This document shows, piece after piece, positions 2,044-18,927 of a DNA stretch of 42,152 nucleotides. The notes below the pieces were generated by a model. It was not told the DNA's origin. It saw only the letters and a program-made list of their open reading frames with translations, and ran no database searches. The position numbers and the translations under genes were made by a program. How positions within the stretch are numbered: position 1 is the stretch's first letter; each line of letters opens with the position of its first letter. This DNA comes from Chloroflexota bacterium (GTDB taxonomy: Bacteria > Chloroflexota > Limnocylindria > Limnocylindrales > CSP1-4). Where the stretch lies: contig JAKAMV010000004.1 in the NCBI GenBank assembly GCA_021812735.1, forward strand, positions 1-42,152, in the 5' to 3' direction.

Positions 2044-2095
2044 CCGACCATTCGGGTCGGGATTGAGTCTATATCCGTGCCCGCGAGGTCGTCAA
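2044..2095 (-). promoter_or_regulatory. Candidate suf promoter with inverted-repeat operator
   Basis: On the minus strand TTGACG (2095-2090) and TATAGA (2073-2068) are separated by 16 bases, a plausible sigma70-type promoter for the rrf2-suf operon. A perfect inverted repeat, CCGACC-N5-GGTCGG (2044-2060), sits at the expected start point and is a good candidate for autorepression by the Rrf2 protein. The -35 box overlaps the left casposon target duplication (2091-2105), so the mobile element starts within about 15 bases of it. Seen in sequence; promoter and operator function are inferred. Confidence 0.6.
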
Positions 2096-2105
2096 CGAGG
2101 GGGCG
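2091..2105. repeat. Casposon target-site duplication, left copy
   Basis: The 15-bp sequence GTCAACGAGGGGGCG is identical to 15899-15913. It lies immediately outside the left terminal inverted repeat. A C precedes both copies, so the exact edge is ambiguous by one base. A 14-15 bp duplication is the known footprint of Cas1 casposase integration. Confidence 0.93.
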
Positions 2106-2139
2106 GGGGTAGTAGTTAGAGGGTCTGGAAGTTGCCGCT
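2106..2139 (+). repeat. Casposon left terminal inverted repeat
   Basis: Begins with the 15 bases GGGGTAGTAGTTAGA, identical to the right end read inward. After a divergent 7-bp block, GAAGTTGCCGCT is again identical. Overall 29 of 34 positions match the right repeat. The shared pattern is GTAGTAG, 12 bases, GAAGTTGCCG. Confidence 0.92.
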
Positions 2140-2165
2140 CGACTCCGTCCGCTAACGTGGGGGGA

Positions 2166-3023
2166 ATGACCGAGAGCCTCAATACCAGCATCGACGAGAT
2201 GCGGCGCCGTGAGGCCCACAACCACCCAGCTCTGCGGTTCGGCGTCCCGGCACTGAATGCTGCTCGGAAGCTCGCCGAGTCGGAGTCGTCCGAACTCTTC
2301 GACCTCGCGATTGGCAGCCTCGCCACAGATCCCAAAGGCCTCCTCGAACTATCCCACGCACTCGCCTTGTGGACGGAGGTGATGGCCAGACTTGTCGTCT
2401 CGGGCCCCGGCTCGATCGTGGCAGGAGCGGAGGTGCCTGGGGTTCAACGGCCAACCGACCCGGCGAACCATGCGATCGTCGCTGCCGAGGTGGACGCCTT
2501 GACGTTCTTCTCGATTGGCGACCTAGTCCTGGAGGCGTACGCGCGGGCGGAACTCGCGCGGCGGGGTGACAGAGGGCGAAGCTGGCCCGTGCTGATGCGG
2601 CTCGTCGATGCTGGGCCTGCCACGCGGATACGCGACGCTGCGAGAAGACTCGACGTGAGCCTTAGGCTCGGGCGTACCCGCTTGGTTGCGCACCCCCTCC
2701 CAGCGCATTGGAACTTCACGATCTGGTGGGTCGATGGATCTGTTCTCGTCAGCAGACAGGCTGCTGAGCAACGCCCCAGCGGCCACTTGGTGAACATCAA
2801 CGATCAGCTCGACGATCCATGGCAGTCCGACGAGTCGATGGCGATGCTCCGCCACGTGCTGAGCCACGCAGACAAGTTGGACAAGGCAAATCGGGATCAG
2901 CTGGTGAGCGTCGTCGACGATCTTGGGTTCGTGCCGCCGACGTACGCGTTCATGGTCGCGGACGTTCTGGCACTTGTAAGGGGACTCAGGAGTTCTGTCG
3001 CTGCTCCGCCAGCCAACCCGTAG
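2166..3023 (+). CDS. Hypothetical protein, first gene inside casposon left end
   Basis: About 285 residues from ATG 2166, which follows a G-rich ribosome-binding-like stretch; a GTG at 2157 is an alternative start. I do not recognise the family. The protein is largely helical in appearance, with an acidic N-terminal half (LAESESSELFDLAIGSLA), a repeated pattern of Ala/Leu helices, and a region near residue 190 with FTIWWVDGSVLVS that looks like beta structure. No membrane segment, signal peptide or metal motif is seen. GC content is visibly lower than in the flanking chromosome, which fits cargo of the mobile element. It starts only about 26 bases inside the terminal repeat, so its promoter may lie in the repeat or outside the element. 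Function unknown. Confidence 0.72.
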   Translation: MTESLNTSIDEMRRREAHNHPALRFGVPALNAARKLAESESSELFDLAIGSLATDPKGLLELSHALALWTEVMARLVVSGPGSIVAGAEVPGVQRPTDPANHAIVAAEVDALTFFSIGDLVLEAYARAELARRGDRGRSWPVLMRLVDAGPATRIRDAARRLDVSLRLGRTRLVAHPLPAHWNFTIWWVDGSVLVSRQAAEQRPSGHLVNINDQLDDPWQSDESMAMLRHVLSHADKLDKANRDQLVSVVDDLGFVPPTYAFMVADVLALVRGLRSSVAAPPANP

Positions 3024-3138
3024 ACGCGAGACGGATCTCGCCCAGCGGAGCACCAGGAGCGACGACGTGGCCCCGCGTGGGGGGCATCGTCGAATGGGGA
3101 GACCTCAGACGATACGTTCTATAATCCGGCGCTCCCTA

Positions 3139-3166
3139 TTGACAGGGGGGATAAGAGAGCTACGAT
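3139..3166 (+). promoter_or_regulatory. Possible sigma70-like promoter in the gap before the terminator
   Basis: TTGACA (3139-3144) and TACGAT (3161-3166) are spaced by 16 bases on the plus strand. The only thing downstream on that strand before the terminator at 3198 is about 30-60 bases, so if real it would drive a very short RNA. It may be chance. Confidence 0.3.
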
Positions 3167-3197
3167 CGACTGCAGTGGATAGCGGTTTCCGCTATCG

Positions 3198-3228
3198 GCG
3201 CCGAGGTCCCTTGGGCCTTGGCGCTTTT
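3198..3228 (+). terminator. Rho-independent terminator after the first casposon gene
   Basis: A stem formed by GCGCC (3198-3202) and GGCGC (3220-3224), reinforced by AGG/CCT inside, is followed directly by TTTT on the plus strand. It would end transcripts from the gene at 2166-3023 and separates it from the converging DUF3800 gene, whose stop codon overlaps the T-run. Confidence 0.65.
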
Positions 3229-4159
3229 AGTTTCCCGTCATCTGGCCTGACGAGGCGACCACTGCTCTGTGCTCCAAGACTGCTTCGCGGAGATCCGAAT
3301 CCGGGAACACCTTGATGCCGAACTTCCCCATTCGCCCGTCACCACGGCAGTACGTGTGCCGCCCGAAGATCCCCCACCTCCCGGGCGAAGTCTCGCACCC
3401 GTCGCGCACCCATTCGTAGATGTCGCGCGAAAGCATGTCTGCGAGTTCCATCGGATCAGAACCCTGCTTGGGGGTGAAGCGCAGCCCCGTCTCAAGCCAC
3501 TGCCGGAATGCGGAGTCAGCGACCCACTGGGTGCCGTTGAGGAGAATGTCGACGAAATCGCGCTGGTGTTCCGCGTCTTCCCGCGGGCCTTGGCTCTCGA
3601 ACGTGACCCGAGCCAGCGTCCGGTCCGCGCTCGTGCTCGCCAGGTAGTCCACGTACCGCTCGAGCAGCATCTGGATCGAGACGGAGTAGACGTCGGTGGG
3701 CAGATAAGGGTCGATACCCGTCTCTGCGAACTCTCGCCGAAAAGCGGCCTTCCGAATCCCGACGCCGAAGCACGTGAAGGCCGAACCTTCGACGAGTTGG
3801 TCGAGGGCGGCATCGAACTCAGCTTGGCGCTGAGCGTCGCCGCCGAAGTTGAAGATGCCGTCTCGCTGTCGCATCTTGGGTTCGTGGAACGTGAGATCAG
3901 CCCGGCCGAAGAACTCGACCTTCAGCTCGTCGGCTCGGCGCCGGTAGTCGTCCGCGGCCGCCCCACGCATCGAGACGCCGGCGAGGGCGAAGAAGGACCA
4001 TGTCTCATCGTTCGCGATCCCCGACTTGCCCGACTCGTCGAGGAAGAGGTGGTGTCGCTGATCGTCGCTCGCCTGGCGTATCGGGCCACCCTTGAACCGT
4101 TTGCGTGGCTCAATCCGCCCCTCTGCCCGAAGCAGCTCGCTATGCTCCGCTTCCGCCAC
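3227..4159 (-). CDS. DUF3800 family protein
   Basis: The protein carries the DUF3800 hallmark near residue 37, HHLFLDESGKSG, with the conserved Asp-Glu-Ser-Gly that resembles an RNase H-like active-site start, followed by WSFFALAGVSM, then a C-terminal half with charged helices. DUF3800 proteins are frequent in phages and other mobile elements and are suspected nucleases, but no activity is established for this one. The annotated start is GTG at 4159; the frame is open back to about 4380 without an ATG or GTG and the upstream translation looks protein-like (charged helices such as LSRRRAQLLAEAGRLGHALR), so a rare start or a lost start codon is possible. It follows cas1 in the same direction and may be co-transcribed with it. 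Confidence 0.82.
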   Translation of the reverse strand: MAEAEHSELLRAEGRIEPRKRFKGGPIRQASDDQRHHLFLDESGKSGIANDETWSFFALAGVSMRGAAADDYRRRADELKVEFFGRADLTFHEPKMRQRDGIFNFGGDAQRQAEFDAALDQLVEGSAFTCFGVGIRKAAFRREFAETGIDPYLPTDVYSVSIQMLLERYVDYLASTSADRTLARVTFESQGPREDAEHQRDFVDILLNGTQWVADSAFRQWLETGLRFTPKQGSDPMELADMLSRDIYEWVRDGCETSPGRWGIFGRHTYCRGDGRMGKFGIKVFPDSDLREAVLEHRAVVASSGQMTGN

Positions 4160-4398
4160 CGTCGCCAGCAGGGTCCGGAGCCCATCGGAGTCGAAATCGG
4201 CTCGGTCCAGAAGGACCCGCAGCGCATGGCCAAGTCGCCCGGCTTCGGCCAGAAGTTGCGCACGGCGTCTCGACAGCCGTCTGCCTTCCGAATCGCCGAT
4301 CGGCTGTTCAGGCGGCTGTTGCCCGGCAGGCTGCGTGATCGGTATCCCCCGGTTTCGCCAGCGAGAAGTGGGCCTAGATTAGCGCTCGCGCATTGAGA

Positions 4399-6006
4399 TC
4401 AGCGCATCGTGCGTGCACGGGGCTGATCTGCGACAGTCCCCAGCCGCTCCCACCACATGGGGTGCGGCACCACCAGCCCCTTCTTGATGCGCCGGCAGTA
4501 GTTCTCGGACAGCCCCGTCGCCTCCACCAGCTCGCGCACCGGCACATCCGCGAGCCGGGGCAGGACGTCCCGCCCGAAGGCGTCCGGGTCCTTGGGCCAC
4601 TTGTGCCCCCGCTGCCAGTCGCGCGCCTCGGCGACCCTGTCCGATGCCGCCACCCGCAGGCGGCCCCGCCCCTCTTCGGTGAGCGCAGCCGCCCCCTCGG
4701 CATGGCGCCGCCGGAGCACCTCGGTCCCTGCGGCAACGAATGCGCCCAGCCCGTGCGCCCGGGCCGCTTCCTCGCATGCATCAGAGCATGTGCCCCTACC
4801 GCCCCGGGTCGGTGACCCGCACTCCACGCACGATCGGCGGGCGGATACCCGGGGCGCATTGCCGCCCCGGAACGCACCGCCCCGCCCCGCGCTTCGATTC
4901 CGCCCGTTGATCGGGGTGGGCGCCTTGCGGCGCCACGACGGTGCCCGGGCCGGTGGGGGCGCATCCACCGATCCCCGCTCGAGCATGCGGGCCACGTCCT
5001 CGGCGACGCGGCCGACGGCAAAGCCCCACTGCGGGACCGATTGCGCGAGATCACGGGCCAGCGTCGGCGTGATCCGACACACCTCTTGCCGGGTCTCGTG
5101 GAAGTCCGACGCGGCGAAGATGCGCCGCGCGACCAGATCGAGCACGTGCCGGTCAACCTCGGGCCGGACGGGCTCCATCAGGTCGGCCGCCAGGGAGTCC
5201 CGGTTGAGCTGGTCCGCGTGCAGGACCCCGAGCCCAGGGTCGAGCCCGACCACCCGTGCGGCAATCGACGCCTCCCCCTCGAGCAGGGCGTAGAGGTAGT
5301 TCAGGAGGGCGTTCGCCGGGTTCGCGGCGAGCCGCGGACCCCCGGTCAGCGGCGAGCTCCTCGCCCCGAACGTCCGCCAGTGGGCCGGCACCCTCGCCTC
5401 GTCGCGGCGCGCCCAGCGCAGGGGGAGGGCAGACCACGCCGACCAGTAGGCGGCCGCAGCCGCGGCCTCCGTGACCCGCACCTCATCTCGTGAGGTCGCG
5501 ACGCGAAGCCGAGCCTGTGCGCCGTCGATCGCATCGGGGACCCACGCCTCGACCGGGACGAGGCGCCCGAGCTCGTGGAGGGTGCCGGCCTGCCCGGCGA
5601 GCTTGCTGGTGATCAGCTCACGCGCGATTCCATTGCCCAGCGGGGTGTTCAGCGCCACCGCCTGGGCCCGCCGGAGCGGCGGCCGGTCGGTGCCCAGCGG
5701 CCCGAATGCTGCGAGGACCCGACCGTCCTCGTCGAGTTGGAGGTACCCCGCCCCGACATCAGCCAGCCAGCGGATTGCGTCGAAGCTGATCGCGCCGGTG
5801 TGCCCCAGCACGACGAGCCGGCGCAGGCCGCCCGTGGCGCGGTGGACGATCGCCTCCCGGCGGTCGCGACCGATCCCGTCGGCTACTCGGAGCTGGCCGC
5901 GCCAGACGCGGACCGAGAGGCCGTAGCCCGAAAGGGTGAGGACCCCGTGTGGGGGTGTGAGGTCGGCTGGCCAGGCGGCCAGCGAATCGATAGCCTCAGG
6001 GCGCAT
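4399..6006 (-). CDS. cas1: Casposase: Cas1-family integrase with C-terminal zinc finger and HTH
   Basis: A 535-residue Cas1 homologue, the likely integrase of the casposon: it would bind the terminal repeats, cut and join them to a new target with a ~15-bp staggered duplication. The N-terminal beta domain covers about 20-110 (GVLTLSGYGLSV, LRRLVVLGHTGAISFDAIRWL). The catalytic helical domain has NPANALLNYLYALLEGE, GLDPGLGVLHAD and SLAADLMEPVRPEVDR, giving the metal-binding set E245, H263 and E278. After about residue 345 comes a basic linker, then a zinc finger (C393, C396, C407, C411) and a C-terminal HTH (VLPRLADVPVRELVEATGLS, YCRRIKKGLVVPHP). CRISPR Cas1 is normally near 300-350 residues and lacks this tail. 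No cas2 or array is nearby. A 58-bp gap with a hairpin separates it from the gene upstream on the same strand. Confidence 0.95.
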   Translation of the reverse strand: MRPEAIDSLAAWPADLTPPHGVLTLSGYGLSVRVWRGQLRVADGIGRDRREAIVHRATGGLRRLVVLGHTGAISFDAIRWLADVGAGYLQLDEDGRVLAAFGPLGTDRPPLRRAQAVALNTPLGNGIARELITSKLAGQAGTLHELGRLVPVEAWVPDAIDGAQARLRVATSRDEVRVTEAAAAAAYWSAWSALPLRWARRDEARVPAHWRTFGARSSPLTGGPRLAANPANALLNYLYALLEGEASIAARVVGLDPGLGVLHADQLNRDSLAADLMEPVRPEVDRHVLDLVARRIFAASDFHETRQEVCRITPTLARDLAQSVPQWGFAVGRVAEDVARMLERGSVDAPPPARAPSWRRKAPTPINGRNRSAGRGGAFRGGNAPRVSARRSCVECGSPTRGGRGTCSDACEEAARAHGLGAFVAAGTEVLRRRHAEGAAALTEEGRGRLRVAASDRVAEARDWQRGHKWPKDPDAFGRDVLPRLADVPVRELVEATGLSENYCRRIKKGLVVPHPMWWERLGTVADQPRARTMR

Positions 6007-6028
6007 GCGGACTTAACCTCCGTGTGCC

Positions 6029-6062
6029 ATGCCCCCGGGCTGTTAGCGCAGCCGCGGGGGCG
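6029..6062 (-). promoter_or_regulatory. Strong hairpin between the upstream gene and cas1
   Basis: The 58-bp gap before cas1 contains complementary arms GCCCCCGGGCT and AGCCGCGGGGGC around a loop of about 8 bases. No T-run follows on either strand, so it is more likely an mRNA processing or attenuation element, or an inverted repeat bound by protein, than a simple terminator. Confidence 0.45.
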
Positions 6063-6064
6063 CT

Positions 6065-6937
6065 TCAGTTGTCGCTCGAATTGTCCTCCCCCAAGCCTCC
6101 GACGTCACTACCTCCGGAGCGGGTCACCTCCGCAAGCGCCATCCTGAGGTCGAGGCACGATCCGTCCATAACCGGGGCCCGCGGCCCCTCGAGGGCGAGG
6201 AAGCCGGGGTCCGTCAACCACTCCGCGACGCGCAACATGCCTGGGGCCGCTCTGGCTGCCGCCCACTCGACGCGGGCCCGGGCGAACGCGTCGCCGTCGA
6301 GCCGGTCGAAGGCCACGCGCGGGTCCGCCATGGCGAGCAGCACCTCGAGCACCCCCTCCGGGCCGAGCGACGCCGCTCCATCGGACGAGCTCGACCCCGG
6401 CGGCTCCATGACTGCCCGCAAGGCGATGAGGAGCTCCTCGTTCGAGGCTTGGGCCCTGTATGCGAAGTCGGCCTCGAAGAGATCGGCAACACCTCTACGG
6501 AGCCTCTTCACCGCGCGGTCCTCCCTGCCCGGTTCCGCGAGGTGACCGACGACAAGGACGGCATCGCGCTCGGCCGCGGCGCGTGACGAGTGCCGGGGAC
6601 CCTTGGCCCATGTCGCCAGGGCGCGGCGGACCTGCGGGAGCGGCACGGTGGCATCGTCCCCGCGAAGCCAGACCCAGACGGGGAGGTCGCATAGCCGCGC
6701 GTGCCGCGTGTAGGCCGACCGGCTGTGCAGCCACAGCAGCAGGCGCCAGAGTGTGAGCTGCGAGTCGGACCACGCGCGCTGGGCGCGACCCTGCCCGCGC
6801 CCCAGGCCGCGGCCGAGCGCCGGCCGGTCCATGAGTCCCGCGGCGACCCACCGCCGGAGCATCCGCTCGCTGGCGTCGTAGCCCCAGTCCGCCGCGTGGC
6901 GGATGAGGTCGGCAGCCGTGTGTCTGCCGGCCGGCAT
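6065..6937 (-). CDS. Casposon protein with N-terminal MerR-like helix-turn-helix
   Basis: A 290-residue protein from ATG 6937. The N-terminus (HTAADLIRHAADWGYDASER, MLRRWVAAGLMDRP) looks like a MerR-type winged HTH, followed by a Gly/Arg-rich linker (GRGLGRGQGRAQRAW) and a tryptophan-rich helix LTLWRLLLWLHSRSAYTRH. The rest is helical and acidic with a low-complexity stretch (PPGSSSSDGAASLGPEG) near residue 200. I cannot assign a function; a regulator of element genes or an accessory DNA-binding factor for transposition is the most reasonable guess. It is directly upstream of cas1 on the same strand and diverges from the HTH-HNH-polB operon, with a repeat-bearing control region in between. 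Confidence 0.75.
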   Translation of the reverse strand: MPAGRHTAADLIRHAADWGYDASERMLRRWVAAGLMDRPALGRGLGRGQGRAQRAWSDSQLTLWRLLLWLHSRSAYTRHARLCDLPVWVWLRGDDATVPLPQVRRALATWAKGPRHSSRAAAERDAVLVVGHLAEPGREDRAVKRLRRGVADLFEADFAYRAQASNEELLIALRAVMEPPGSSSSDGAASLGPEGVLEVLLAMADPRVAFDRLDGDAFARARVEWAAARAAPGMLRVAEWLTDPGFLALEGPRAPVMDGSCLDLRMALAEVTRSGGSDVGGLGEDNSSDN

Positions 6938-7027
6938 TACAAGTGACCGCGCATCTGCGACCGATTCTTACATGTGACCGCGCGGCTAGGAGGCTCCTGG
7001 AACCGGTTCCGGGCGCATGTTTCGTCC
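6938..7027. promoter_or_regulatory. Divergent control region with direct repeats
   Basis: Two near-identical words, ACAAGTGACCGCGC (6939-6952) and ACATGTGACCGCGC (6970-6983), sit about 31 bases apart, three turns of the helix, between the divergent cas1 and polB gene groups. This spacing fits a cooperative binding site for one of the two HTH proteins that flank it. Regulatory use is inferred. Confidence 0.45.
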
Positions 7028-7489
7028 ATGGCACATCGAGCCCGCCGACCACCCGACCCCGCCGCCCGCGAGCGCGCCCTCGACGCGCTGGCGCTGTCGC
7101 GGCGCACGGGGGTCTCGCTCACGCGGGCCGCCCGCCTGACAGACACCACGCGCCGCACGGTCCTGCGCCACGCGGGGCGCGGCTTCCGCCGCGAGGGGCG
7201 CCGCTGGGCGCCCCGGGCGTTCGACCGCATCCCGCGCGAGATGACCGCGCTCACGCCGCGCGGACCGGAGCTCGTCGTCGTGCGCGACTCCCGGACCGCC
7301 TCGCTCCTGGCAGAGCACGCCAACGCGGTCCGCCACTATCTCCACACCGGCGATGACGAGCGCCTCCGGGAGCTGCGCCGCCGCATGTTCCACCTCGGTG
7401 GCCGCACGGTCGTCTTGGTCGCCGACGAGGAGCTCATCGACCGGCTCGCCGCCGGCGGCGAGCTCCACTACGAACTGTACGCTCGATGA
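7028..7489 (+). CDS. Small HTH protein of casposon polB operon
   Basis: About 153 residues from ATG 7028 (an upstream GTG at 6974 is possible but would overlap the control region). The N-terminal half contains RERALDALALSRRTGVSLT and AARLTDTTRRTVLRHAG, a clear helix-turn-helix of the resolvase/sigma-4 type. The C-terminal half (ELVVVRDSRTASLLAEHANA, VRHYLHTGDDERLRELRR, GRTVVLVADEELIDRLA) has a conserved look I associate with a family of HTH proteins found on high-GC mobile elements. Its stop codon overlaps the start of the HNH gene (ATGA), so the two are translationally coupled. HTH proteins are common partners of PolB and Cas1 in casposons; a role in regulation or end recognition is inferred. 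Confidence 0.8.
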   Translation: MAHRARRPPDPAARERALDALALSRRTGVSLTRAARLTDTTRRTVLRHAGRGFRREGRRWAPRAFDRIPREMTALTPRGPELVVVRDSRTASLLAEHANAVRHYLHTGDDERLRELRRRMFHLGGRTVVLVADEELIDRLAAGGELHYELYAR

Positions 7490-7914
7490 GCACCAAGTCC
7501 ACCCTCCGGGCGGCAGCGAACGAGGAGGTGCGGGCGCAACGACTCCCCGAGGGCGCCCGTTGCGCGATCTGCCGCACCGACCGCTCGCTCGTTCTGGTCG
7601 GCCCTTCTATCCGCTGCTACGCGCACCGCCGCTCGACCGTCCGGGCGGTCGAGGCACATCACCTCGCTGGTGCAGCCAACCTGCCGGGGTTGGTGGCGCC
7701 GTACGCGGCCAACGCTCACCGGGAGTTCCACGACTGGGAACGCGCGCTCGGGCTCGACGAACTGCCGCCCGCCGGCGGCGAGCCCTTGCTCCTGCTCGCC
7801 CACGTGCTCAAGGGCATCGGGCTGCTCGTGCTCCAGCTCTCCCACTGGCTCGCCGCGTACCTCGCGGCCCGCGAGCAGGGCGGGGACGGGCCCGAGTTCC
7901 CGCTCGTCCCGTGA
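7486..7914 (+). CDS. HNH-type zinc protein (probable endonuclease) with C-terminal hydrophobic segment
   Basis: A 142-residue protein with the ligand pattern of HNH nucleases: C26 and C29 (CAIC), C44 and H47 (RCYAH), then VEAHHLAG with H58/H59, N65, and AANAHREFHDW with N76 and H78. The His-Asn-His arrangement between zinc ligands is what makes an HNH active site, and HNH nucleases are a recurrent casposon gene. Residues about 97-126 (PLLLLAHVLKGIGLLVL, SHWLAAYLAA) form an unusual hydrophobic helix or pair of helices, so membrane contact or a hydrophobic interface is possible. It starts on the stop of the HTH gene and ends on the GTG of polB (GTGA), so the three genes form a tightly coupled operon. 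Confidence 0.8.
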   Translation: MSTKSTLRAAANEEVRAQRLPEGARCAICRTDRSLVLVGPSIRCYAHRRSTVRAVEAHHLAGAANLPGLVAPYAANAHREFHDWERALGLDELPPAGGEPLLLLAHVLKGIGLLVLQLSHWLAAYLAAREQGGDGPEFPLVP

Positions 7915-10900
7915 CCCGTCGCCCTCGATCGGGAGGCGACTACCGCGGCCCGATCGCCGTCCGGGCGCACGTGCCGTCCGCCCGCCGCCGCCAGCCCCCG
8001 TCCTCGCTCGGCAGGCCCGGGCTTGTGCTCGTGCTCGACACCGAGACCACGACCGACCCATCGCAGCGGCTCCTGTTCGGCTCGTACCGCGTCCTCCGGG
8101 CCCGAACGGGCAAGCTCATCGAGGAGGGGCTGTTCTACGCGCACGACCTGCCGTCGGGCGATCTCGCCACGCTCGAGCGCTACGTCGCCGAGCACGCCGA
8201 CGACGACGGCGGACAGCTCCGACTCCTGTCCCGTGCCGAGTTCGTCGAGGAGGTGCTCTGGAGGGTCGGCCACCAGGCGCGGGCGCGGATTGTCGGCTTC
8301 AACCTGCCGTTCGACCTGAGCCGCCTCGCCGTCCACGTCGCCCCCGCCCGCGGCATGGGCGGTGGCTTCTCGCTGCGGCTCTGGGAGTGGCGGGACCCGG
8401 CGGGCCGCCGGCTGCTCGACCGGTGGCGGCCGACGATCCGGGTCAAGACGATCGACGCGCGGCGCCAGCTCATCAGCTTCGGCACCCCGGGCTCCCTCGA
8501 CCCGGAGCACCGCGTCGGCCGCGGCTACCGGGGGCGGTTCCTGGACCTCCGGGCGCTCGCCTACGCGCTGACCGATCGGGGCCACTCGCTCGCGTCGGCG
8601 GCGCGGGCCTTCGGCGTCGAGCGCGGCAAGGACCGCGTCGAGCGCCACGGGGTCGTGAGCGAGGCGTACATCGACTACAACCGCCAGGACGTGCGCCTGA
8701 CCTTCGAGCTTCATCAGGCGCTCATGGCCGAGTGGGCGAGGCACCCGGTCGAGCTCGACCCGGAGCGGGCGTTCTCGCCCGCCGCGGTGGGCAAGGCGTA
8801 CCTGCGCGCGATGGGGGTCCGCCCGCCGATGGATCGCCCCAACCACGTCCCCGATGAGGTCTTGGGACGGTCCATGGCCGCCTACTACGGCGGGCGGGCG
8901 GAGTGCCGGGTCCGGCGGGTGCCGCTCCCGGTCCGCTATGTCGACTTCACCTCGATGTACCCGAGCGTGTTCGGGCTCGAGGGCCTGTGGCGCTGGGTCG
9001 TGTGCGACCACTTCGAGGTCGAGGACGCGACCGGGGACGCCCGGGCCTACCTCGCGTCCGCCACCCGCGAGGGGCTCCACGACCCGGCCGCATGGCCGCC
9101 GCTCGCCGGGGTCGTCTGCCGGGTGCGCCCGGCGGGCGAGCTGCTCCCGGTCCGCGCTCGCTACGGGGCGGACCCCGACGGCGGCGCGGGCAACCCCGCC
9201 TGGACGATCGGGCTCAACCGCCTCCACGCGCCGGTCGAGCTCTGGTACACGCTCGCCGACCTCGTCGCGGCCAAGCTCCTCGGCGGCCGGGCGCCCGTGG
9301 TGCTCGAGGCCGTCCGCGTCGTCCCGGTCGGGACCGCCGAGAGGCTGCGCCCGGTGCGGCTCCGCGGGGCCGTCCGCGTCGACCCGCGACGCGACGACCT
9401 GTTCCGCCGCGTGATCGAGGAGCGCCAGAGGATCAAGCGGGACCCCTCGATCCCGGCCCACGAGCGTGACCGGCTCGAGCACTTCCTCAAGGTGTTCGCC
9501 AACGCCGCCAGCTACGGCGTGTTCGCCGAGGTCCGCCAGCTCGACCGGCCGGGCGAGGTCACGGGGTTCGGCCTGTGGCCGTTCACAGCCCGCTTGGCAG
9601 CGCCCGAGGAGCCGGGCGAGTTCAGCTTCCCGCCGCTCGCCGCGACGGTCACCGGCGGCGGCCGGCTCCTGCTCGCGCTGCTCGAGGCCGACGTCGAGGC
9701 GGCCGGCGGCAGCTACGTCGCCTGCGACACCGACTCGCTGCTCATCGTCGCGTCGCCGACGGGCGGGCCCATCGCCATGCCCCACGGCACGCGTCGCGCT
9801 ACGCGCCGGCACGCGCGTGGCAAAGGGGGCACTCGACCGCAACCGCATGACCATAACGACCATGGCGGACCGTGCATAGCGCCCATGCACGTAGGCATGC
9901 CCGTAGTGCCCACCATGCGTATGGATCATGCGCGGAGCGAGGAAATCGACCATGCATGGACCGTGGCACGGACCATACGGGTACGCCCGTAGCCACGCCC
10001 GTAGATATGCCCGTTGCATGCACCATGCACATGGCCCATTGCGGCACCACGCCCACGGACCATGTGCACGCGCTCTCGTACGCCCAGGTCGACGCGATCC
10101 GGGCTGGCCTCAACCGGCTGAGCCCGTACCGGCGGGACGCGGTCCCCGAACTGCTCAAGCTCGAGCCAGAGAACGGCCCGCCGGCGGGCCATCCCGGTGC
10201 CGGCCCGCTCCACGCCGTCGCGCTGAGCGCGAAGCGCTACGCCCTCTACAACCCGAGCCCCGCCGGGCCCGTCATCCGCAAGGCCTCGAACCACGGCCTC
10301 GGGCTGTATCGCCGGCCGTTCGCGGATCTCGAGCCCGACGTGGGGCAGGAGGGGCGCGCCTGGCCGGCCTGGGCCGAGGAGGTCTGGCAGCGGGTGATCG
10401 CCGAGGCCGAGGGGCGCGACCCGGCCCCCGAGCCCGACTGGTTCGGGCTGCCCGCGGTGAGCCAGATCCACGTCTCGAGCCCACACGTCCTGCGCCCGTT
10501 CGCCGCGCTCAACGCGGGCAAGAGCTACGCCGACCAGGTCAAGCCGTTCAACTTCGGCCTGCTCGCCCACCGCGACCCGCTGTGCGCGCTGCCGACCGAG
10601 CTCGAGGGCCGCGAGGTCACCCCGGTCGCGCCGTACACGGGCGAGCCGTCCGAGTACCTGGGGCTCCCGTGGGCGAACCGGGTCGACGGGCGGCCCCTGC
10701 GCGTGACCACCGGCCGGCCGCGGTCAGGGGAGGTGCGCGTCACGACGTACGGCGACGTTGTCGCCGACTACCGGCTGCACCCCGAGCACAAGAGCGGCGA
10801 CCCGCGCGGCGGCCCCGGGGTCCGGGGCAGCGTCGGGGTCCTGCCGAGGCTCCACGTCGTCGCGACCGAGGTCCGGCACATCGGCAAGGAGTCCAACCGA

Positions 10901-11155
10901 CTCGAGGAGGTCGAGAACGGGGAACTGTCAGCGGCCGACGAGGTGTACACGGAGTATCGCGACCCATCGGCGGAGTGGGAGCACGAGGTGCTGCCGCGGC
11001 TGCGGGAGATGGGCGCCGCGCGAGTGGCGGAGCTCACGGGCACCCCCGAGCGGACGGTTCGCTCGTGGCTGCGCGAGGGGCGGGTGCCTCGGGAGCCGGT
11101 GCGGGGACGGCTCGCGGATCTTGCTCGAACACACGCAGCGCCGACCGCGTCCTGA
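7911..11155 (+). CDS. polB: Casposon family B DNA polymerase, reading frame interrupted
   Basis: Replicative-type DNA polymerase expected to copy or fill in the casposon. From GTG 7911 the exonuclease motifs are LDTETTTD (D43, E45), GFNLPFDL (D135) and YNRQDVRLT (Y256, D260). Polymerase motif A is DFTSMYPSVF (D345), motif B is KVFANAASYGVF (K527) and motif C is CDTDSLLI (D606, D608). All catalytic residues are present. Just after motif C the frame enters a repeat-rich insert and stops at 9992; the thumb and C-terminus (HALSYAQVDAIRAGL, AVPELLKLE, AKRYALYN) continue in another frame to 11155. The two frames overlap only in 9857-9992 and no classic slippery site is seen there. The last 60 residues form an HTH like that of the Cas1 protein. 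Either disrupted, frameshifted, or misassembled at the repeat. Confidence 0.88.
9788..10051. repeat. CCATGC/GCATGG-rich palindromic insert in polB
   Basis: This ~270-bp block differs from the rest of polB in base and word use. It is full of degenerate copies of ACCATGC-N-ATGG words (for example around 9911, 9949, 9970 and 10021) and local palindromes such as CCATGCATGG (9949-9958), plus three CCCGTAG-like repeats at 9987-10014. It is bracketed by CCCACGG at 9781-9787 and 10052-10058. Family B polymerases normally have a short loop here, so it looks like an insertion, although removing exactly one repeat period (271 bp) does not restore the frame. Confidence 0.7.
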
Positions 11156-11266
11156 GTCGAACGAGCTCCGCCGGGCGTCCCGCCCTCGGCTGGCCGGTGG
11201 GCTTCGTCGTGCCACAGCCGGGATCGACGGGGCGGGCGCGTTGCCGGGGTACAGGCGAGTGTCGTG

Positions 11267-11488
11267 CTAGCCGCTTATCCGGCGCTTACGCCGCATGTCG
11301 ATCCATTCGGCCGAGCCGTCCCAGAACGCCGCCGATGCTGGGTCGCGGCCGAGCGCTGTCGCGTGTGCCTCCCAGACGGCCACGAGCGCCTCGGCCATGT
11401 CCTCGGGCATCCCGGGTCCAGTCAGGCGGCGCAGGACAGCGACGTGGCGGGCCGTGTAGATGCGCGGAGGGTCGGGTCGGTGGTTCAT
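11267..11488 (-). CDS. Small hypothetical protein
   Basis: A 73-residue frame (MNHRPDPPRIYTARHVAVLR...) with a plausible amphipathic middle (EDMAEALVAVWEAHATALGR) and a basic C-terminus ending RRKRRISG. No family recognised. It lies on the strand opposite polB, 111 bases beyond its end, within the casposon. It is the best coding candidate in the stretch between polB and the tRNA-like gene, but the case rests on composition only. A second overlapping frame upstream (11485-11709) has the Ser/Arg/Pro composition of noncoding DNA. Confidence 0.45.
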   Translation of the reverse strand: MNHRPDPPRIYTARHVAVLRRLTGPGMPEDMAEALVAVWEAHATALGRDPASAAFWDGSAEWIDMRRKRRISG

Positions 11489-11921
11489 GGGGTCATGATG
11501 TCCGGCGGTGTGCCAGCTAGACCGTCACGACGGCAAGCAAGCCGTTCTATAGTCACAGGCGGCCGACCACCACTACGGACAGAAGTCACGCCGCCGGACG
11601 ATTCCGCTGGCCCATGGGTCGAGGCCATGGCACCCGGCCGGGTCGAGCGTCGCGCGGTCGCCGCCAGAATCGGTGGTGCCTTGTACGACAGTTCCGATGG
11701 GCTCTGCACTCAGGGCTGATCGGCGGGCGCCGGACCGGCAACGTTGAGACTCCAGCCAGGGGCAGTGTCTAGGTTTGAGCGGGGGGCAAGGGCCATAGAA
11801 CGGACGTTCTATTAGAAGCACCCGACCAGTCGCCGGGCCAAGCACGGATTACGCACGCGAGCGTGTATTGACACCGGCATGCCCGGAGCTGTCCACTATG
11901 CGCGATCCCTAGGGATCGGAT
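11489..11921. other. Gene-poor stretch inside casposon
   Basis: No convincing protein gene. It holds a LexA-like box at 11798-11809 and a perfect 16-bp palindrome CGATCCCTAGGGATCG at 11903-11918 just before the tRNA-like gene. The GC content is lower than that of the chromosome. Confidence 0.5.
11795..11812. promoter_or_regulatory. LexA-like SOS box candidate
   Basis: ATAGAACG-GA-CGTTCTAT is a perfect inverted repeat whose core GAACGGACGTTC matches the Gram-positive type LexA consensus GAAC-N4-GTTC. The nearest downstream feature on the plus strand is the tRNA-like gene at 11922. LexA binding is an inference and the consensus of this organism is unknown. Confidence 0.45.
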
Positions 11922-11997
11922 GGGCCGGTGGCGAAGAGGAAACGCGCCGTTCTGGCAAGCTCGGCATGCAAGGGTTCGATTCCCTTCCGGCCCTCCA
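11922..11997 (+). tRNA. tRNA-like gene with encoded CCA and abnormal anticodon arm
   Basis: Seventy-six bases with a perfect 7-bp acceptor stem (GGGCCGG/CCGGCCC), discriminator T and encoded CCA. The D-arm is GCG...CGC with GG in the loop, and the T-arm is AAGGG-TTCGATT-CCCTT, a canonical T-loop. The anticodon arm (11947-11964) pairs only over CCG/CGG, leaving a 12-base loop. If read as CTGGCAA the anticodon would be GGC (Ala), but stem pairing does not support it. A diverged or mobile-element tRNA, or a tRNA mimic, fits best. Confidence 0.62.
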
Positions 11998-11999
11998 AA

Positions 12000-12322
12000 A
12001 CCACAGATGTACCGAATTCTTACTAGGAGTTTGGTCGTAGGATCTTGACACGAGAAACGATGCGACCGAAGATCGCCGTTGCCAGAACGGCCTTCGGAGC
12101 GATCCGTTGGCATGACCGAGCGGAAGAGCCGGTAGGTCCCAAACATCTAGCTAGATGGGGCCGCCGGCTTTTCTTGTGTCTCCGATCAACCGAGGAGCGC
12201 CGCGATCTCCCTGCACGTCCAGACATGGTCTGAGAGCTCCGCAGCCACCGCGCGGGTGCACGGGTAATCGCCTCACAGCACGTCCTCCCGAAGCGGGTTC
12301 GCTGTGAGGGCTACCGGATTGG
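12000..12322. other. Noncoding stretch with several inverted repeats
   Basis: No convincing gene. It contains the palindrome CATCTAGCTAGATG (12145-12158) inside larger complementary arms AGCCGG (about 12127) and CCGGCT (about 12167) followed by TTTCTT, a terminator-like arrangement on the plus strand. A perfect 8-bp inverted repeat CTCACAGC/GCTGTGAG lies at 12272-12279 and 12301-12308, just past the stop codon of the XRE gene, and may be its terminator. A structured RNA between 12030 and 12175 is possible but unproven. Confidence 0.45.
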
Positions 12323-12568
12323 CTAGCCGGTCATCCCCGCCCGCACCTCCGCCACCACGGCGTCGGCGTCGAGGCGGAGGACCGCGGCCACCTCGAGGAA
12401 CTCCACCAGGTCGAGCCGCCGCTCGCCGCGCTCATACTTGGCGACGAACGACTGCGGGCGGCCGAGGGCCTGGGCGACGTCCGCCTGGGTCATCCCCTGC
12501 GCGCGCCGTCCGGCGATGAGCAGCTCGCACATGCGCGCGTACGCGACGGTGAACACGGACCTGGTCAT
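12323..12568 (-). CDS. XRE-family (Cro/CI type) repressor
   Basis: An 81-residue protein consisting almost wholly of an XRE helix-turn-helix: LLIAGRRAQGMTQADVAQAL, GRPQSFVAKYERGERRLDL, then a short helix VEFLEVAAVLRLD. The fit to the family is clear and the length is normal for stand-alone XRE proteins. It is transcribed away from the secreted peptidase gene at 12662, and the 93-bp divergent gap contains a perfect inverted repeat (12615-12629) that is the natural candidate operator. The simplest model is a repressor of its own gene and of the peptidase gene. Confidence 0.88.
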   Translation of the reverse strand: MTRSVFTVAYARMCELLIAGRRAQGMTQADVAQALGRPQSFVAKYERGERRLDLVEFLEVAAVLRLDADAVVAEVRAGMTG

Positions 12569-12614
12569 CGCGCCCTGCCAGCCACGGGCCCGACGCTAAG
12601 TCCGTTTCGGGATC

Positions 12615-12629
12615 ATCCCAAAATGGGAT
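12615..12629. promoter_or_regulatory. Inverted-repeat operator candidate between XRE and peptidase genes
   Basis: ATCCCA-AAA-TGGGAT is a perfect 6-bp inverted repeat with a 3-bp centre in the divergent gap. Its position, 33 bases before the peptidase ATG and 46 bases from the XRE start, fits binding by the XRE protein. Inferred. Confidence 0.55.
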
Positions 12630-12661
12630 ACTTGGCGAGGAGTCGCGGTCTGGGGGAACAG

Positions 12662-13900
12662 ATGGCACGTTGGAGAGATCGGCCCAGGGCAGGGTCGTGG
12701 GCCCGCATCGCCGCCCTCGCCCTCGCCGGCGTGCTGCTCGCGGCGTGCACGCCATCGCTGCCCCCCGAGTCACCGTCTGCAGCGGATCGCACGCACCCCG
12801 CGACCGAGGCGCCACCAACCATGGCCCTCCAGGCGGAGCCGAGCACGCCGCCAAGTCTCTTGCCGACCGCCCCAACACCCAGGCCGACACCCTCCGCGAT
12901 CGCGACGCCCCCTTCGCCGCGTCTCGTCACTACGCCTCGACCTACCGCGACGGGCGACATGTGGGCGCCCACGCCACCGCCGCTCCAGGCGTTCCAGGCG
13001 CCCACGTCGGCGACCACCATCCCAACGATCTTCACGACGCCACCCGGCTGGGTTGTCACGATCGGCCAGCAGGCCTCGCCTGGCGCGACCGTGGAGTTCC
13101 AGGAGTCCTCCGACCTCGTCACCTGGGACACGCTCGCGACTGTCGTGGCCGACGCGTCGGGCTCGGCAACCTGCACGGTCCGGCCGGTCCGCACCGCGTA
13201 CTACCGCGCGTACGTCGCCGGCCAGCTCACGGCCCCGGCCCGCGGCGTGGTCGTGCCGACCGGGGAGTGGACCGGCTGGGTGGTGGGCAACGGCCCCTAC
13301 TCCGGCGTTACGGGCACGTTCACGGTGCCCAACCTCGTGGTGCCCACGCAAGCGCGGACCGTCGTGTCTGAGTGGGTCGGCCTCGACGGGGTGGCGGGCT
13401 CCTCGCTCATCCAGGCCGGGGTCTCGGAGGTCACCACGCCCGGCTCCCAGGAGGTGACCTGCCTGGAGGGGTGGGAGATCCTGCCCGACGCACCGACCTA
13501 CATCGACTGGAACCGGCTGTCGGTCCTCCCCGGCCACCGCGTGACCGCCACCATCTGGCGGGTGTCGGGGACGCAGTGGGGCATCGAGCTCACGGACGGC
13601 ACGACGGGACAGACCTTCGTCACCACGCAGCCGTACGGTGGCTCCGGGACGTCAGCGGACTGGATCGTCGAGGCGCCCGCCGACACCGCCACCGGGAGCG
13701 TGGTCACGCTCGGCCACTTCACGCCCGCGATCACGTTCACCGGTGCCCGGTTCAGCGGGGAACCGGGCGCCGTCTCCAGCACCGTCCCCGAGAAGCTGGG
13801 GCCGATCGTCCAGGCCGGGTTGACGGTGGCCGTCCCGTCGGACCTGTCGGGTGACGGCTTCGCGGTCGCCTACGGCAGCTCGGTCCCGGCGGCGCCGTAA
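12662..13900 (+). CDS. Lipoprotein with glutamic peptidase (G1, eqolisin) domain
   Basis: A 412-residue exported protein. The N-terminus is a lipoprotein signal (ARIAALALAGVLLAACTP, lipid Cys29), followed by a Pro/Thr-rich linker to about residue 120 and an Ig- or FnIII-like segment (ASPGATVEFQESSDLVTWDT). The peptidase domain from about 200 matches family G1: WTGWVVGNGPYSGVTGTF, VVSEWVGLDGVAGSSLIQ, GWEILPDAP, TSADWIVEAP. Gln251 and Glu337 align with the catalytic Gln-Glu pair of scytalidoglutamic peptidase, and their spacing is close to that of the fungal enzyme. It would act at low pH outside the cell. An in-frame ATG at 12623 would overlap the operator, so I prefer 12662. G1 peptidases are mainly fungal, so a bacterial copy as casposon cargo is notable. 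Confidence 0.83.
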   Translation: MARWRDRPRAGSWARIAALALAGVLLAACTPSLPPESPSAADRTHPATEAPPTMALQAEPSTPPSLLPTAPTPRPTPSAIATPPSPRLVTTPRPTATGDMWAPTPPPLQAFQAPTSATTIPTIFTTPPGWVVTIGQQASPGATVEFQESSDLVTWDTLATVVADASGSATCTVRPVRTAYYRAYVAGQLTAPARGVVVPTGEWTGWVVGNGPYSGVTGTFTVPNLVVPTQARTVVSEWVGLDGVAGSSLIQAGVSEVTTPGSQEVTCLEGWEILPDAPTYIDWNRLSVLPGHRVTATIWRVSGTQWGIELTDGTTGQTFVTTQPYGGSGTSADWIVEAPADTATGSVVTLGHFTPAITFTGARFSGEPGAVSSTVPEKLGPIVQAGLTVAVPSDLSGDGFAVAYGSSVPAAP

Positions 13901-14164
13901 CGGCACGAGGCGACCCGGGCTGCATGGAAACCTAGTGCCGGGCCGGTCAAGCGGGGCCGGCGTTGGCGGGCCCGATGCGGCGGAAGGCGCTTGCCTCGCA
14001 CCGCCTGATCACCCGTCGCGCTCCCAAACGCACTTGGGATTCTTCGGCGCTCTCATCCGTACCTCGGGGATAACCCGCTTGACGGGAGCGCATCTCTGGC
14101 GGACCTTGCTCATAAAGGAAGGTGAGCCCATCCCTCGGGCAGGGGGCAGCATCTGGAGTCGATC
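13901..14164. other. Intergenic stretch, nothing recognised
   Basis: About 260 bases between the peptidase and the next small gene. I see no gene, terminator with a T-run, or strong promoter. Confidence 0.5.
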
Positions 14165-14353
14165 ATGACCGAGACCGCATACACCCAGAAGGACCACGAG
14201 TACGGTCGGGTGGTCCTCGACGCGCTGAGGCTGCAGCACAGCTGCGAGCTCGCGGGGATGTCTGTGCAGGCAGCAATGGCTCGCGAGATCCGCAGGCATG
14301 CGACGGAGCGGCAGGTTGCGCTCTACATCACCAGCGGACCACATCTGAAGTGA
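14165..14353 (+). CDS. Small hypothetical protein, possibly DNA-binding
   Basis: A 62-residue frame from ATG 14165 with an AGTCGATC leader and no strong ribosome-binding site. The middle (RVVLDALRLQHSCELAGM, VQAAMAREIRRHATERQ) is helical and could be a small HTH or ribbon-helix protein, but no family is recognised. It is followed closely by the gene at 14391 on the same strand and shares its lower GC content. Coding status is moderately likely from its normal amino-acid composition. Confidence 0.5.
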   Translation: MTETAYTQKDHEYGRVVLDALRLQHSCELAGMSVQAAMAREIRRHATERQVALYITSGPHLK

Positions 14354-14390
14354 GAGTCCGCGGTGGCCACCCGCCGCGTGGGTGCCAGCG

Positions 14391-15185
14391 ATGACCGAGC
14401 CATCCGTGCGAGTCGCACCGATCCCCGGCAAACGGCCGAACGCCGCATGCCGTCTGATCGACGAAGTCACCGGGCACACGTTCAGAGCTATTCCGCGTTC
14501 AACGATCGGCGGGCCCGACGTGCAGGTCGCGCGCCGTGTCCACAGCCGCTGCGTGTCGCGCTACCAGGCGATCGGCCTCCTGCTCGCGTTCAACCAGCCC
14601 GACGACGGCTACGCGCTGCTGCGCGGCCTCATGCTCGACGCCCAGCGGCTCCAGGTCATGGCGCGACGCCCGACGGCCCGGGTCGCCCTGGCCATCGGAT
14701 GGATGGAAGGAGCCGTGCGGGACTTGGAGGACAGGGCGGCGACGGCGGACCGCGTCGGCGAGAGGCGGTTCGCGGCAGCGATCCGGGCGATCACCGTCCC
14801 GCAACGCGAGGCGCTCGACCGCGTCCAGCGCGAGTCCGGCGTTCGGCGTCGGCTGCACCTCCCCGACGAAGGGAAGCCGCTGGCCGTCGCGGCCGGCCAC
14901 CCCGAGGACGAACTGGACTACGTGATCGGGTCCGACCCGACGCACGGGTCCCTGCCAGCGTCGCTCTGGCACGACCGAGGCGTCGCGGGAGGCGGTGCCA
15001 TCGTCGTCGGTGGCAGCGATGCCGGATGGCGCAACACGGTCGCCGACCGGGCGACGCGGCACATGGTGCGCGCGACGGCGGCCCTCGCCGCGATCTGCGG
15101 CTTCCCGAACTCGGCCGACGTGTCCGCGTACGCCGCCGACATCGAGCGCCGCCTGGATGCCGAGGATCTTCCGGGGAAAGACTAG
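14391..15185 (+). CDS. Hypothetical helical protein (possibly DUF5677-like)
   Basis: About 264 residues from ATG 14391 (GTG 14382 is an alternative). The segment RYQAIGLLLAFNQPDDGYALLRGLMLDAQRLQVMA, quoted here only in part, has the feel of the DUF5677 helical domain (paired helices with conserved Arg/Glu near a Leu-Leu-Arg), as does the C-terminal HMVRATAALAAICGF. The middle, from about 140 to 215, is charged and contains HPEDELDYVIGSDPTHG. No signal peptide or membrane segment. DUF5677 proteins are sometimes found beside abortive-infection genes, but the match is weak and I treat the protein as unknown cargo of the casposon. Confidence 0.65.
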   Translation: MTEPSVRVAPIPGKRPNAACRLIDEVTGHTFRAIPRSTIGGPDVQVARRVHSRCVSRYQAIGLLLAFNQPDDGYALLRGLMLDAQRLQVMARRPTARVALAIGWMEGAVRDLEDRAATADRVGERRFAAAIRAITVPQREALDRVQRESGVRRRLHLPDEGKPLAVAAGHPEDELDYVIGSDPTHGSLPASLWHDRGVAGGGAIVVGGSDAGWRNTVADRATRHMVRATAALAAICGFPNSADVSAYAADIERRLDAEDLPGKD

Positions 15186-15332
15186 GGCTGGAAGCCTCTT
15201 CATCGCAAGGGTGTCCAGGGGCAGGCAGGGCCGCGGATCTTGATGTGGGCGCGTTCGTGACAGTCAACCGTACCTAGACTCTTTCTACCATTGCGTGACC
15301 GGCGGGCCACGCCGCACTAACAGGAGACGGGG

Positions 15333-15842
15333 ATGGGCTGGTACGGCACGGAGCGCGAGAACTACTACGACACGGCGCAGGTATGCCTGAGCGGTCACAT
15401 GGTCAACTCGAGGTCGTCGAGCAGCCCCCAGCACAACGAATCGTTCTGCGAGAAATGCGGCAGAACGACCACGACCACCTGCGCGTCATGCGGTGCGGCC
15501 ATCCGCGGCTACTACCACAGTTCGGTCGTCGTTATTGGGGGCGCCGAGGAACAAGCCCCGACCTTCTGTTACTCGTGCGGCGGCTCGTTCCCTTGGACCG
15601 ATGCGAAGCTCGCCGCCGCGCGAGAGCTCGCAGACGAGATGGATGGTCTGAGCGACGAGGAGAAGGAGCGCCTCAAGGCAAACCTCGCCGATCTCGTCGC
15701 GGAGACGCCACGGACCGAGGTCGCGGTCATCCAAACGAAGAAGCTGCTCGCCAAGGCCAGAGGCGAGGCGGTCGGTCTATTCGTAGACGTGCTCAGGCAG
15801 CTCGCACGTGAGGCCGTCAACGGTGCCCTCTTCGGACCCTGA
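15333..15842 (+). CDS. DUF2321 zinc-binding protein
   Basis: A 169-residue protein with a good ribosome-binding site (AGGAGA, 8 bases before ATG). It matches DUF2321 along its length: NYYDTAQVCLSGHMVN, then zinc ligands in FCEKCG, TCASCG, IRGYYH and FCYSCGGSFPWTDAK, giving three CXXC knuckles, followed by a helical C-terminal half (LADEMDGLSDEEKERLK, TKKLLAKARGEAVGLFVDV). The family's function is unknown to me. It is the last gene of the casposon, ending 22 bases before the right terminal repeat, and would be read out towards the flanking DNA. Confidence 0.85.
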   Translation: MGWYGTERENYYDTAQVCLSGHMVNSRSSSSPQHNESFCEKCGRTTTTTCASCGAAIRGYYHSSVVVIGGAEEQAPTFCYSCGGSFPWTDAKLAAARELADEMDGLSDEEKERLKANLADLVAETPRTEVAVIQTKKLLAKARGEAVGLFVDVLRQLAREAVNGALFGP

Positions 15843-15864
15843 ACGCACGCCCCCCAAGCGCGGC

Positions 15865-15898
15865 AGCGGCAACTTCTGGATGGTCTAACTACTACCCC
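15865..15898 (-). repeat. Casposon right terminal inverted repeat
   Basis: Read inward on the minus strand it starts GGGGTAGTAGTTAGA, then a 7-bp variable block, then GAAGTTGCCGCT, matching the left end at 29 of 34 positions. Confidence 0.92.
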
Positions 15899-15913
15899 GT
15901 CAACGAGGGGGCG
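15899..15913. repeat. Casposon target-site duplication, right copy
   Basis: GTCAACGAGGGGGCG, identical over 15 bp to 2091-2105, immediately outside the right terminal repeat. Confidence 0.93.
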
Positions 15914-15947
15914 AGCGTAGTAGATGGGCCAGCGCGAAGTTGCCGGG
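15914..15947 (+). repeat. Third casposon terminal repeat, abutting the right target duplication
   Basis: GTAGTAG (15917-15923), exactly 12 bases, then GAAGTTGCCG (15936-15945) reproduces the spacing and both conserved blocks of the casposon ends, in the orientation of a left end facing right. It directly follows the 15-bp duplication. It is best read as the left end of an older casposon at the same site. No matching right end was found further right. Confidence 0.75.
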
Positions 15948-16314
15948 CTGGCCGCCATCAACAACGCCGTCTGGGGGCAAACCACTCGGAGTCGATCTGC
16001 GGCCCTACGGTCCTGCCCCAGGGTTGACTCGAGCCGTGCCACGACCGCTGTCGGCGACATAAGCGGGGAATAAGGGACACGGCCTAGCGTCTCGCCAGTC
16101 GCTCTTCGGGCTGCGGCCGATAGATCCGCCCGGCCGAGGAACACGGCGACGAACGCAGGGGAGAGACGCTGGACCGTGAACTTCGAACACTGTCCGGCGG
16201 GGTTGCTCTGCCTAGCAGGCCCAATTGGTCCGTGCCTGTCGTCGCATCTGCCGGTCGGTCTGCCGAGCGCGCGCCCACGCACAGGTGCACTTCCCGTCAG
16301 AGGAGAACCTCTTC
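15948..16314. other. Intergenic stretch right of the casposon, nothing recognised
   Basis: About 365 bases following the third terminal repeat. I find no gene, no second right-end repeat and no array. Confidence 0.5.
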
Positions 16315-18910: not shown

Positions 18911-18927
18911 GGGAGGCGGAGGCGTAG

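Follow-up and report, generated by a model that had tools for sequence, protein, structure and literature searches.

A 42,152-nt stretch of DNA from a Chloroflexota bacterium (contig JAKAMV010000004.1 of assembly GCA_021812735.1, positions 1 to 42,152, referred to here as the window) contains a casposon that extends from one terminal inverted repeat (TIR) to the other at 2106-15898. This bacterial element is predicted to move by means of a casposase, a relative of Cas1, the enzyme with which CRISPR systems store fragments of invading DNA. Its own casposase probably placed it where it lies, at the -35 box of the predicted promoter of rrf2/suf (iron-sulfur) genes and directly in front of what is likely the remnant of an earlier casposon at the same site. 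The locus has both ends of the element, a target-site duplication and a third end; relatives share this layout or have an empty site, and one of them has three complete elements together with the end of a fourth. The features of the insertion locus are as follows.

2066..2095, reverse strand: promoter-like site of the rrf2/suf genes, TTGACG-N18-TAGACT, putative leader of the insertion site (consensus match)
2091..2105, forward strand: left target-site duplication, GTCAACGAGGGGGCG
2106..2139, forward strand: left TIR, 29/34 identical to the right TIR
4399..6006, reverse strand: casposase, with a Cas1 domain, zinc-finger cysteines and C-terminal helix-turn-helix (HTH)-like helices (PF01867, E 2.4e-40; invariant residues; model closest to 6opm)
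15865..15898, reverse strand: right TIR, 29/34 identical to the left TIR
15899..15913, forward strand: right target-site duplication, a perfect 15-bp copy of GTCAACGAGGGGGCG
15914..15947, forward strand: third TIR, read as the left end of an older, otherwise decayed casposon (exact core match; TIR score 37.2 of 54.7)

An earlier note on this DNA had described a complete casposon with intact ends, and a recount of the 34-bp repeats and of the perfect 15-bp duplication agrees with its description of those ends; the element is not complete, however, because its DNA polymerase gene (polB) is broken, and the note overlooked the third TIR and the repeated use of the site. The window contains three copies of the TIR core, GTAGTAG-N12-GAAGTTGCCG, compared to an expectation of 0.02: one at each casposon end and one at 15914-15947, oriented like the left end. 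The same core also exists in five other genomes. The window pair ranks first in a blind scan for direct repeats with inverted ends (14/14 end positions, 16-nt repeat); the best pair in a single shuffle of that scan has 12/14 end positions and a 10-nt repeat. The element is a real casposon: it has TIRs with a target-site duplication and a stand-alone cas1 with intact catalytic residues, and its mobility is indicated indirectly by four empty sites and by different occupants at the same site. A family B DNA polymerase gene is present but lies in two frames. This anatomy, the relatives with matching ends and the empty sites in related genomes all support its description as a bacterial casposon whose ends are defined.

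The casposase residues E245, H263 and E278, picked out in the earlier note, are invariant in 27 of 27 aligned sequences, as are the zinc-finger cysteines C393, C396 and C411, with cysteine 407 nearly so. A homologue search with this protein scored 7992 candidates and yielded 3726 homologues at E<=0.001; the sole organism named among the 120 of these that are listed is a Chloroflexota metagenome-assembled genome. An AlphaFold model of the casposase (mean predicted local distance difference test score, pLDDT, 84.3) finds the M. mazei casposase 6opm as its best match in Foldseek, at ranks 1-3. In a tree of 45 Cas1 sequences (281 columns) the casposase family is a separate group (branch support 100) that excludes the Cas1 proteins of type I-C and Synechocystis, of genomes G055 and G101, and of loci L012-L016; the window protein falls outside the few CRISPR (clustered regularly interspaced short palindromic repeats) Cas1 references included. 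The single casposon reference, 6opm, groups with the A. fulgidus CRISPR Cas1 (support 94), and the tree therefore does not separate casposases from CRISPR Cas1 proteins generally.

Because Pfam and NCBIfam both label the window protein Cas1, and because 6opm itself falls with a CRISPR Cas1, one could suppose that it is a stray CRISPR adaptation gene between accidental inverted ends. This is extremely unlikely given the threefold occurrence of the core, its recurrence in other genomes, and the casposase ranking best in Foldseek. Moreover, the window does not have the cas1-cas2 pair and CRISPR array of an adaptation module: the tandem repeats listed for it include no CRISPR-like array of repeats and spacers, and tblastn of the window with type I-E cas1, cas2, cas3, cas5, cas6 and cas8 gives no match, in keeping with the earlier note, which saw no cas2, array or effector genes here.

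Probable insertion at a predicted rrf2/suf promoter

The left flank of the casposon holds an rrf2 gene (PF02082, E 1.8e-37) and an ABC ATPase gene (PF00005) that we take to be sufC. TTGACG-N18-TAGACT is the only promoter-like match between 1850 and 2160 (0.0 in shuffles), and the -35 box of this predicted promoter covers the start of the duplication. A long G+C-rich inverted repeat lies between rrf2 and the insertion site, at 1989-2048, with paired changes among relatives that were seen by eye.

The site region is matched in 11 of 12 same-genus genomes and the site is readable in nine, four of which (G013, G014, G015 and G016) are empty and without any TIR; in G013, host DNA homologous to window position 21585 begins 251 bp behind the empty site. 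A TIR follows the leader in G002, G006 and G007, and the G008 contig stops within the start of a TIR at the site. In G012 the leader is without a TIR, but about 1.6 kb further on two TIRs enclose a second copy of the repeat. The earlier note would have given up the casposon had there been neither an empty site nor another copy, and related genomes supply both. G002 (contig JAJYLZ010000004.1) has a different casposon at the same position; its element core is less similar to that of the window (71.8% identity, 7 blocks) than is the host DNA (84.3%, 17 blocks), which speaks for separate insertions in the two genomes.

The motif GTCAACG lies no more than 24 nt outside the TIR in 15 of 18 TIRs. A second promoter with such elements belongs to a suf gene (PF01592) that is presumably sufU. 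A survey located all 30 of 30 sufU loci, with GTCAAC within 140 bp in four and absent in 26; three of these four are occupied (G001, G085 and G086, with a B-type end, GGGGTAAAGAGCAAGCGG, in G085), and the fourth, in G087, is empty and followed by a non-cas open reading frame (ORF). The pattern AATTCCGA-N8-GTCGGGATTGA-N24-GTCAACG is common to the sufU leader of G001 and the rrf2 leader of the window, and most other rrf2 leaders read differ from it by a few bases.

Stacked elements and their defence cargo

The third TIR (no matches in shuffles) immediately follows the right duplication, and nothing behind it was recognized as the right end of a second element, so it could be host DNA, a TIR-like target recognized beside the insertion point rather than the end of a second casposon. 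The four same-genus empty sites do not have this TIR, however, and because of its absence there we reject this explanation as very improbable; in addition, two cas1 fragments follow the third TIR in G002, and complete elements follow each repeat in G001. We therefore continue to regard it as the likely left end of an older casposon.

Junctions of an end, a repeat and a second end (TACCCC, GTCAACG..., GGGGTA) are present in G002, in G012, and three times on contig C86 of G001 (PLZO01000043.1). On G001 contigs C158 and C66 a window-type end and repeat are followed by GGGGATATAG or GGGGTACAG, which we take for other element ends. Contig C86 has three complete elements and, at the contig edge, the end of a fourth (A), separated by one 14-bp repeat, GTCAACGCCGG[C/T]GG, at 38253, 18817, 8184 and 128, in a series that starts at the sufU promoter.

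Element D: 19,422 bp, ends 33/36 identical, promoter-proximal
Element C: 10,619 bp, ends 29/34 identical
Element B: 8,042 bp, ends 23/34 identical

The TIRs of the three differ, but all share GGGGTA. The junction pattern occurs in five of 107 family genomes, where G001, G002 and G012 are convincing and G032 and G097 look like chance; a reversed control matched G044, G050, G106 and G108, and a stricter pattern is found in one of the 107. When eleven further Cas1 loci (L003, L004, L007-L015) were searched blindly for ends, no result stood clearly above that of a single shuffle, and stacking is therefore shown only for relatives that share the TIR or the repeat of the window.

Stacks could also arise by segmental duplication or by recombination between TIRs, rather than by repeated insertion. 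The TIRs and repeats could serve as substrates for such events, and the same caveat has been raised in print for M. burtonii (PMC4046053). We nonetheless consider it improbable, since elements B, C and D differ in TIR type and cargo, and since the cores of window and G002 have diverged further than their hosts.

A small element of 1,568 bp is present on G001 contig C74 (locus L033, local 8650-10217); its two TIRs match, it has a 14-bp duplication, and its target lacks GTCAACG. A search for cas1 in it gave no match, and it is possible that it is a non-autonomous mini-casposon.

Element D contains casposase, HTH-like, HNH-like and polB genes, followed by a CRISPR array and type I-E effector genes (local 9163-10546 and 10581-18134, respectively, in locus L035, which is G001 C86 20001-40000). 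Cas6e, Cas5, Cas7, Cse2, Cse1 and Cas3 each score above the Pfam cut-off, and 9 of the 23 repeats of the array deviate from the consensus, a hint that it may be a fossil array; its spacers have only 14-20 nt matches in the scanned loci, apart from the array itself. The Cas3 has both HD and helicase domains, so a role in defence is more likely than one in guided transposition. When the cas genes of three I-E loci of the family were compared by tblastn to 50 kb of C86, cas1 and cas2 had no match, while cas3, cas5, cas6 and cas8 did. In the draft genome of G001, PF01867 is found on C86 and C158 only, in both cases of the casposase type, and the I-E Cas2 family is absent from the drafts of G001 and G002 (the control is positive in 2 of 14 genomes). 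The other elements also carry defence genes: element C has R, M and S genes for type I restriction, a polB that is truncated, and no cas1; element B encodes a type I R-like protein and an AbiJ-like (PDC-S32) protein; and the G002 casposon has R and M genes and an Mrr-like nuclease.

It is unlikely, though less so than an origin of the stacks by recombination, that the G001 CRISPR-Cas genes are a resident locus beside the casposon, or a product of misassembly, rather than cargo. This is a single case in a metagenome-assembled genome, and I-E loci exist elsewhere in the family: Cse1 is present in 3 of the 107 genomes, and there are three I-E loci outside casposons, one in G007 and two in G059. 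However, each of these retains I-E cas1 and cas2 and has no casposon ends (the two in G059 are on 9-10-kb contigs), and in G087, where the sufU site is empty, the promoter is followed by a non-cas ORF. The 19,422-bp stretch has its 33/36 ends, the same repeat on both sides with one base different, and the casposase, polB, CRISPR array and effectors between them. The G007 locus (L144, C36 60001-80000) is an ordinary I-E locus with cas1-cas2, in which one repeat 16-mer occurs 57 times.

From the anatomy and the published biochemistry of casposases we propose the following mechanism. The casposase would recognize the promoter side of the site as a leader and join the 3' ends of the element, in staggered fashion, to both strands of the adjacent 14-15 bp, which repair would then duplicate. 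Because the left copy of the duplication would restore the -35 box, the promoter would stay intact. With each new insertion at the repeat next to the leader, older elements would be moved further from it, and the locus would lengthen in the pattern repeat-element-repeat-element, in the way that spacers lengthen a CRISPR array. The window copy would be competent for integration at most, because its polB is broken, and would need a polymerase from elsewhere.

Several points weigh against this interpretation. The case is made from sequence, not from observed transposition or integration, and the promoter is predicted from a consensus match only. The third TIR starts with AGC rather than GGGG, making the window junction weaker, and neither a right end nor a third repeat of the older element was found behind it. 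The TIRs of contigs C74 and C51 are at sites without GTCAACG. The best-preserved element is next to the promoter in the window, G002 and G001, which suggests that the elements may be ordered by age, but this fails in G012, where the promoter-side element is a remnant without a left end. A screen of the window cargo for defence genes gave no clear match, and the CRISPR cargo is known from one metagenome-assembled genome, G001.

A broader possibility, about which we are doubtful but which we would place above any of the alternatives considered here, is that suf promoters act as leaders for growing, leader-ordered arrays of repeat-separated casposons, a large-scale counterpart of CRISPR arrays that would form an expandable defence island of the host. 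One element would have taken up a type I-E system that has lost its own cas1-cas2, and the casposases, the sole Cas1 proteins found in that genome, may insert into both kinds of array. The proposed descent of CRISPR arrays from casposon insertion is based on experiments in vitro and on the tandem casposons of archaea. The present system is natural and bacterial, and the state of one leader can be compared between related genomes, in which it is empty, occupied, stacked or decayed. A casposon with I-E effectors and an array but no adaptation genes makes the relation between casposases and CRISPR directly testable. The findings also point to casposons as carriers of restriction and CRISPR defence, in the manner of Tn7-like elements.

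Relation to described systems

Casposons, their bacterial family 3, Cas1 proteins with a zinc finger and HTH, and tandem casposons are already in print. The earlier note called the element family 2-like; judged by published description, the closest architecture is instead that of bacterial family 3 (PMC4046053). The family 3 casposon AceAut-C1 is likewise bacterial, encodes a Cas1 with a zinc-binding domain and HTH at its C-terminus, has HNH, HTH and PolB genes, and has TIRs and a duplication (PMC4046053). The window element agrees with this plan, with its HNH and one HTH assigned from pattern and synteny; by description it is set apart by the suf-promoter site, by stacking, and by the restriction and CRISPR-Cas cargo of relatives. 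Family 2, represented by MetMaz-C1 of M. mazei (6opm), shares the five-gene core and HTH at the C-termini of Cas1 and PolB and provides the closest solved fold, but it is archaeal and targets tRNA genes, and the available part of its description does not name a zinc finger. Family 5, from hot springs, is described as without the C-terminal HTH and mostly without a DNA polymerase (PMC9755687); the window element, with its HTH-like C-terminus and polB, does not fit that description.

Tandem casposons have been published for Methanosarcina and Nitrosopumilus (PMC9939771, PMC6563490, PMC10359463), and these likewise have several elements per target site with the duplication between them. The present arrangement differs in being bacterial, in its promoter site, in comprising three complete elements and one end of another, in the differing TIRs, and in the defence cargo. 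A mini-casposon inserted at the original M. mazei site, giving a tandem (PMC10359463). In A. boonei only five terminal residues are critical, and the requirements include two border residues and a leader motif located 8 bp upstream of the segment that is duplicated (PMC6614799). CRISPR arrays are similar in having repeat-separated units placed by a Cas1 next to a leader, but here the units are 8-19-kb elements with their own ends, and there is no Cas2. Casposons have been named as the source of the CRISPR adaptation module (PMC11656645). The same source describes CRISPR-associated transposons, which resemble element D in that a transposon carries a CRISPR array and effectors while adaptation genes are mostly missing; element D has a casposase, in contrast to their Tn7/Mu proteins.

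In the open-licence literature we found no report of Chloroflexota casposons of this type, of promoters as casposon targets, or of casposons carrying CRISPR-Cas effectors, which is no proof of absence. The window element itself is a partly broken casposon, and the novelty lies in the stacking at suf promoters and in the CRISPR-bearing relative.

Polymerase, other genes and distribution

The core of the element consists of the casposase, two HTH-like proteins, an HNH-like protein and PolB, and is syntenic in G002, in element D of G001 and, partly, in locus L003.

6065..6937, reverse strand: conserved HTH-like core protein, with homologues at the same place in G002 and L003 (no Pfam match)
6974..7489, forward strand: conserved HTH-like core protein, with homologues in G002, G001 element D and L003 (no Pfam match)
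7486..7914, forward strand: HNH-like core protein, with homologues in G002 and G001 element D (no Pfam match)
8001..9785, forward strand: polB, first part, with the exonuclease and the palm as far as the DTDS motif
9770..10070, forward strand: low-complexity CATGCCCGTAG-rich insert that breaks the polB frame (borders approximate)
10040..11155, forward strand: C-terminal part of polB with HTH, in another frame

The HNH-type protein of the earlier note retains its HH..N..H pattern and its synteny, on which the label rests, but has no match in Pfam, NCBIfam or PHROG. Similarly, all of the family B polymerase motifs that the note reported can be read, but not in an intact gene. The N-terminal part of polB is open to 9992 and the C-terminal part lies within an ORF at 9872-11155; the frame changes between DTDS and LSYAQVDAIR, such that the last ~370 codons are in another frame behind ~300 bp of low-complexity DNA at about 9770-10070, with a net gain of ~245 bp over relatives. 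The gene is a single open frame in three relatives, G002, G001 element D and L003 (loci L001, L002 and L003), and a model of the intact G002 PolB (mean pLDDT 90.2) matches family B polymerases such as E. coli Pol II, Pol alpha, KOD and phi29. The interrupting DNA has no match in plasmids; of 12 genomes of the genus, two have matches to it, and these are short (30-47 nt). This CATGCCCGTAG-rich segment contains many imperfect direct and inverted repeats.

The remaining features of the element are cargo genes and a tRNA-like gene.

2157..3023, forward strand: cargo ORF of unknown function (no Pfam match)
3227..4159, reverse strand: cargo DUF3800 protein (PF12686, E 1.1e-6)
11922..11997, forward strand: tRNA-like gene, anticodon Ala or Cys as the loop is ambiguous (Rfam, 46.1 bits)
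12323..12568, reverse strand: small HTH_3 regulator, cargo (PF01381, E 2e-9)
12623..13900, forward strand: peptidase A4 family protein, cargo (PF01828, E 1.3e-22), with a homologue in an element remnant on contig C70 of G007
14382..15185, forward strand: cargo ORF of unknown function
15333..15842, forward strand: cargo ORF of unknown function

The casposase is rare among the genomes searched. It is found in 4 of 107 family genomes at E 1e-20, two of them (G055 and G101) with weak matches that fall beside I-C Cas1 in the tree, and in 3 of 177 class genomes at E 1e-60. The window Cas1 has no match at E 1e-5 in PLSDB plasmids or INPHARED phages. Among viral contigs 17 stretches fit the pattern of its relatives and none was confirmed, and the only TIR-core match there (L093) scores 17.6 of 54.7 and looks like chance.

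Outside the casposon, a RelA/SpoT-domain gene lies beside an IS110-type transposase gene at 18170-19947, between the element and conserved host genes, and a head-to-tail tandem repeat with periods of 29 and 49 bp is present at 41840-41968.

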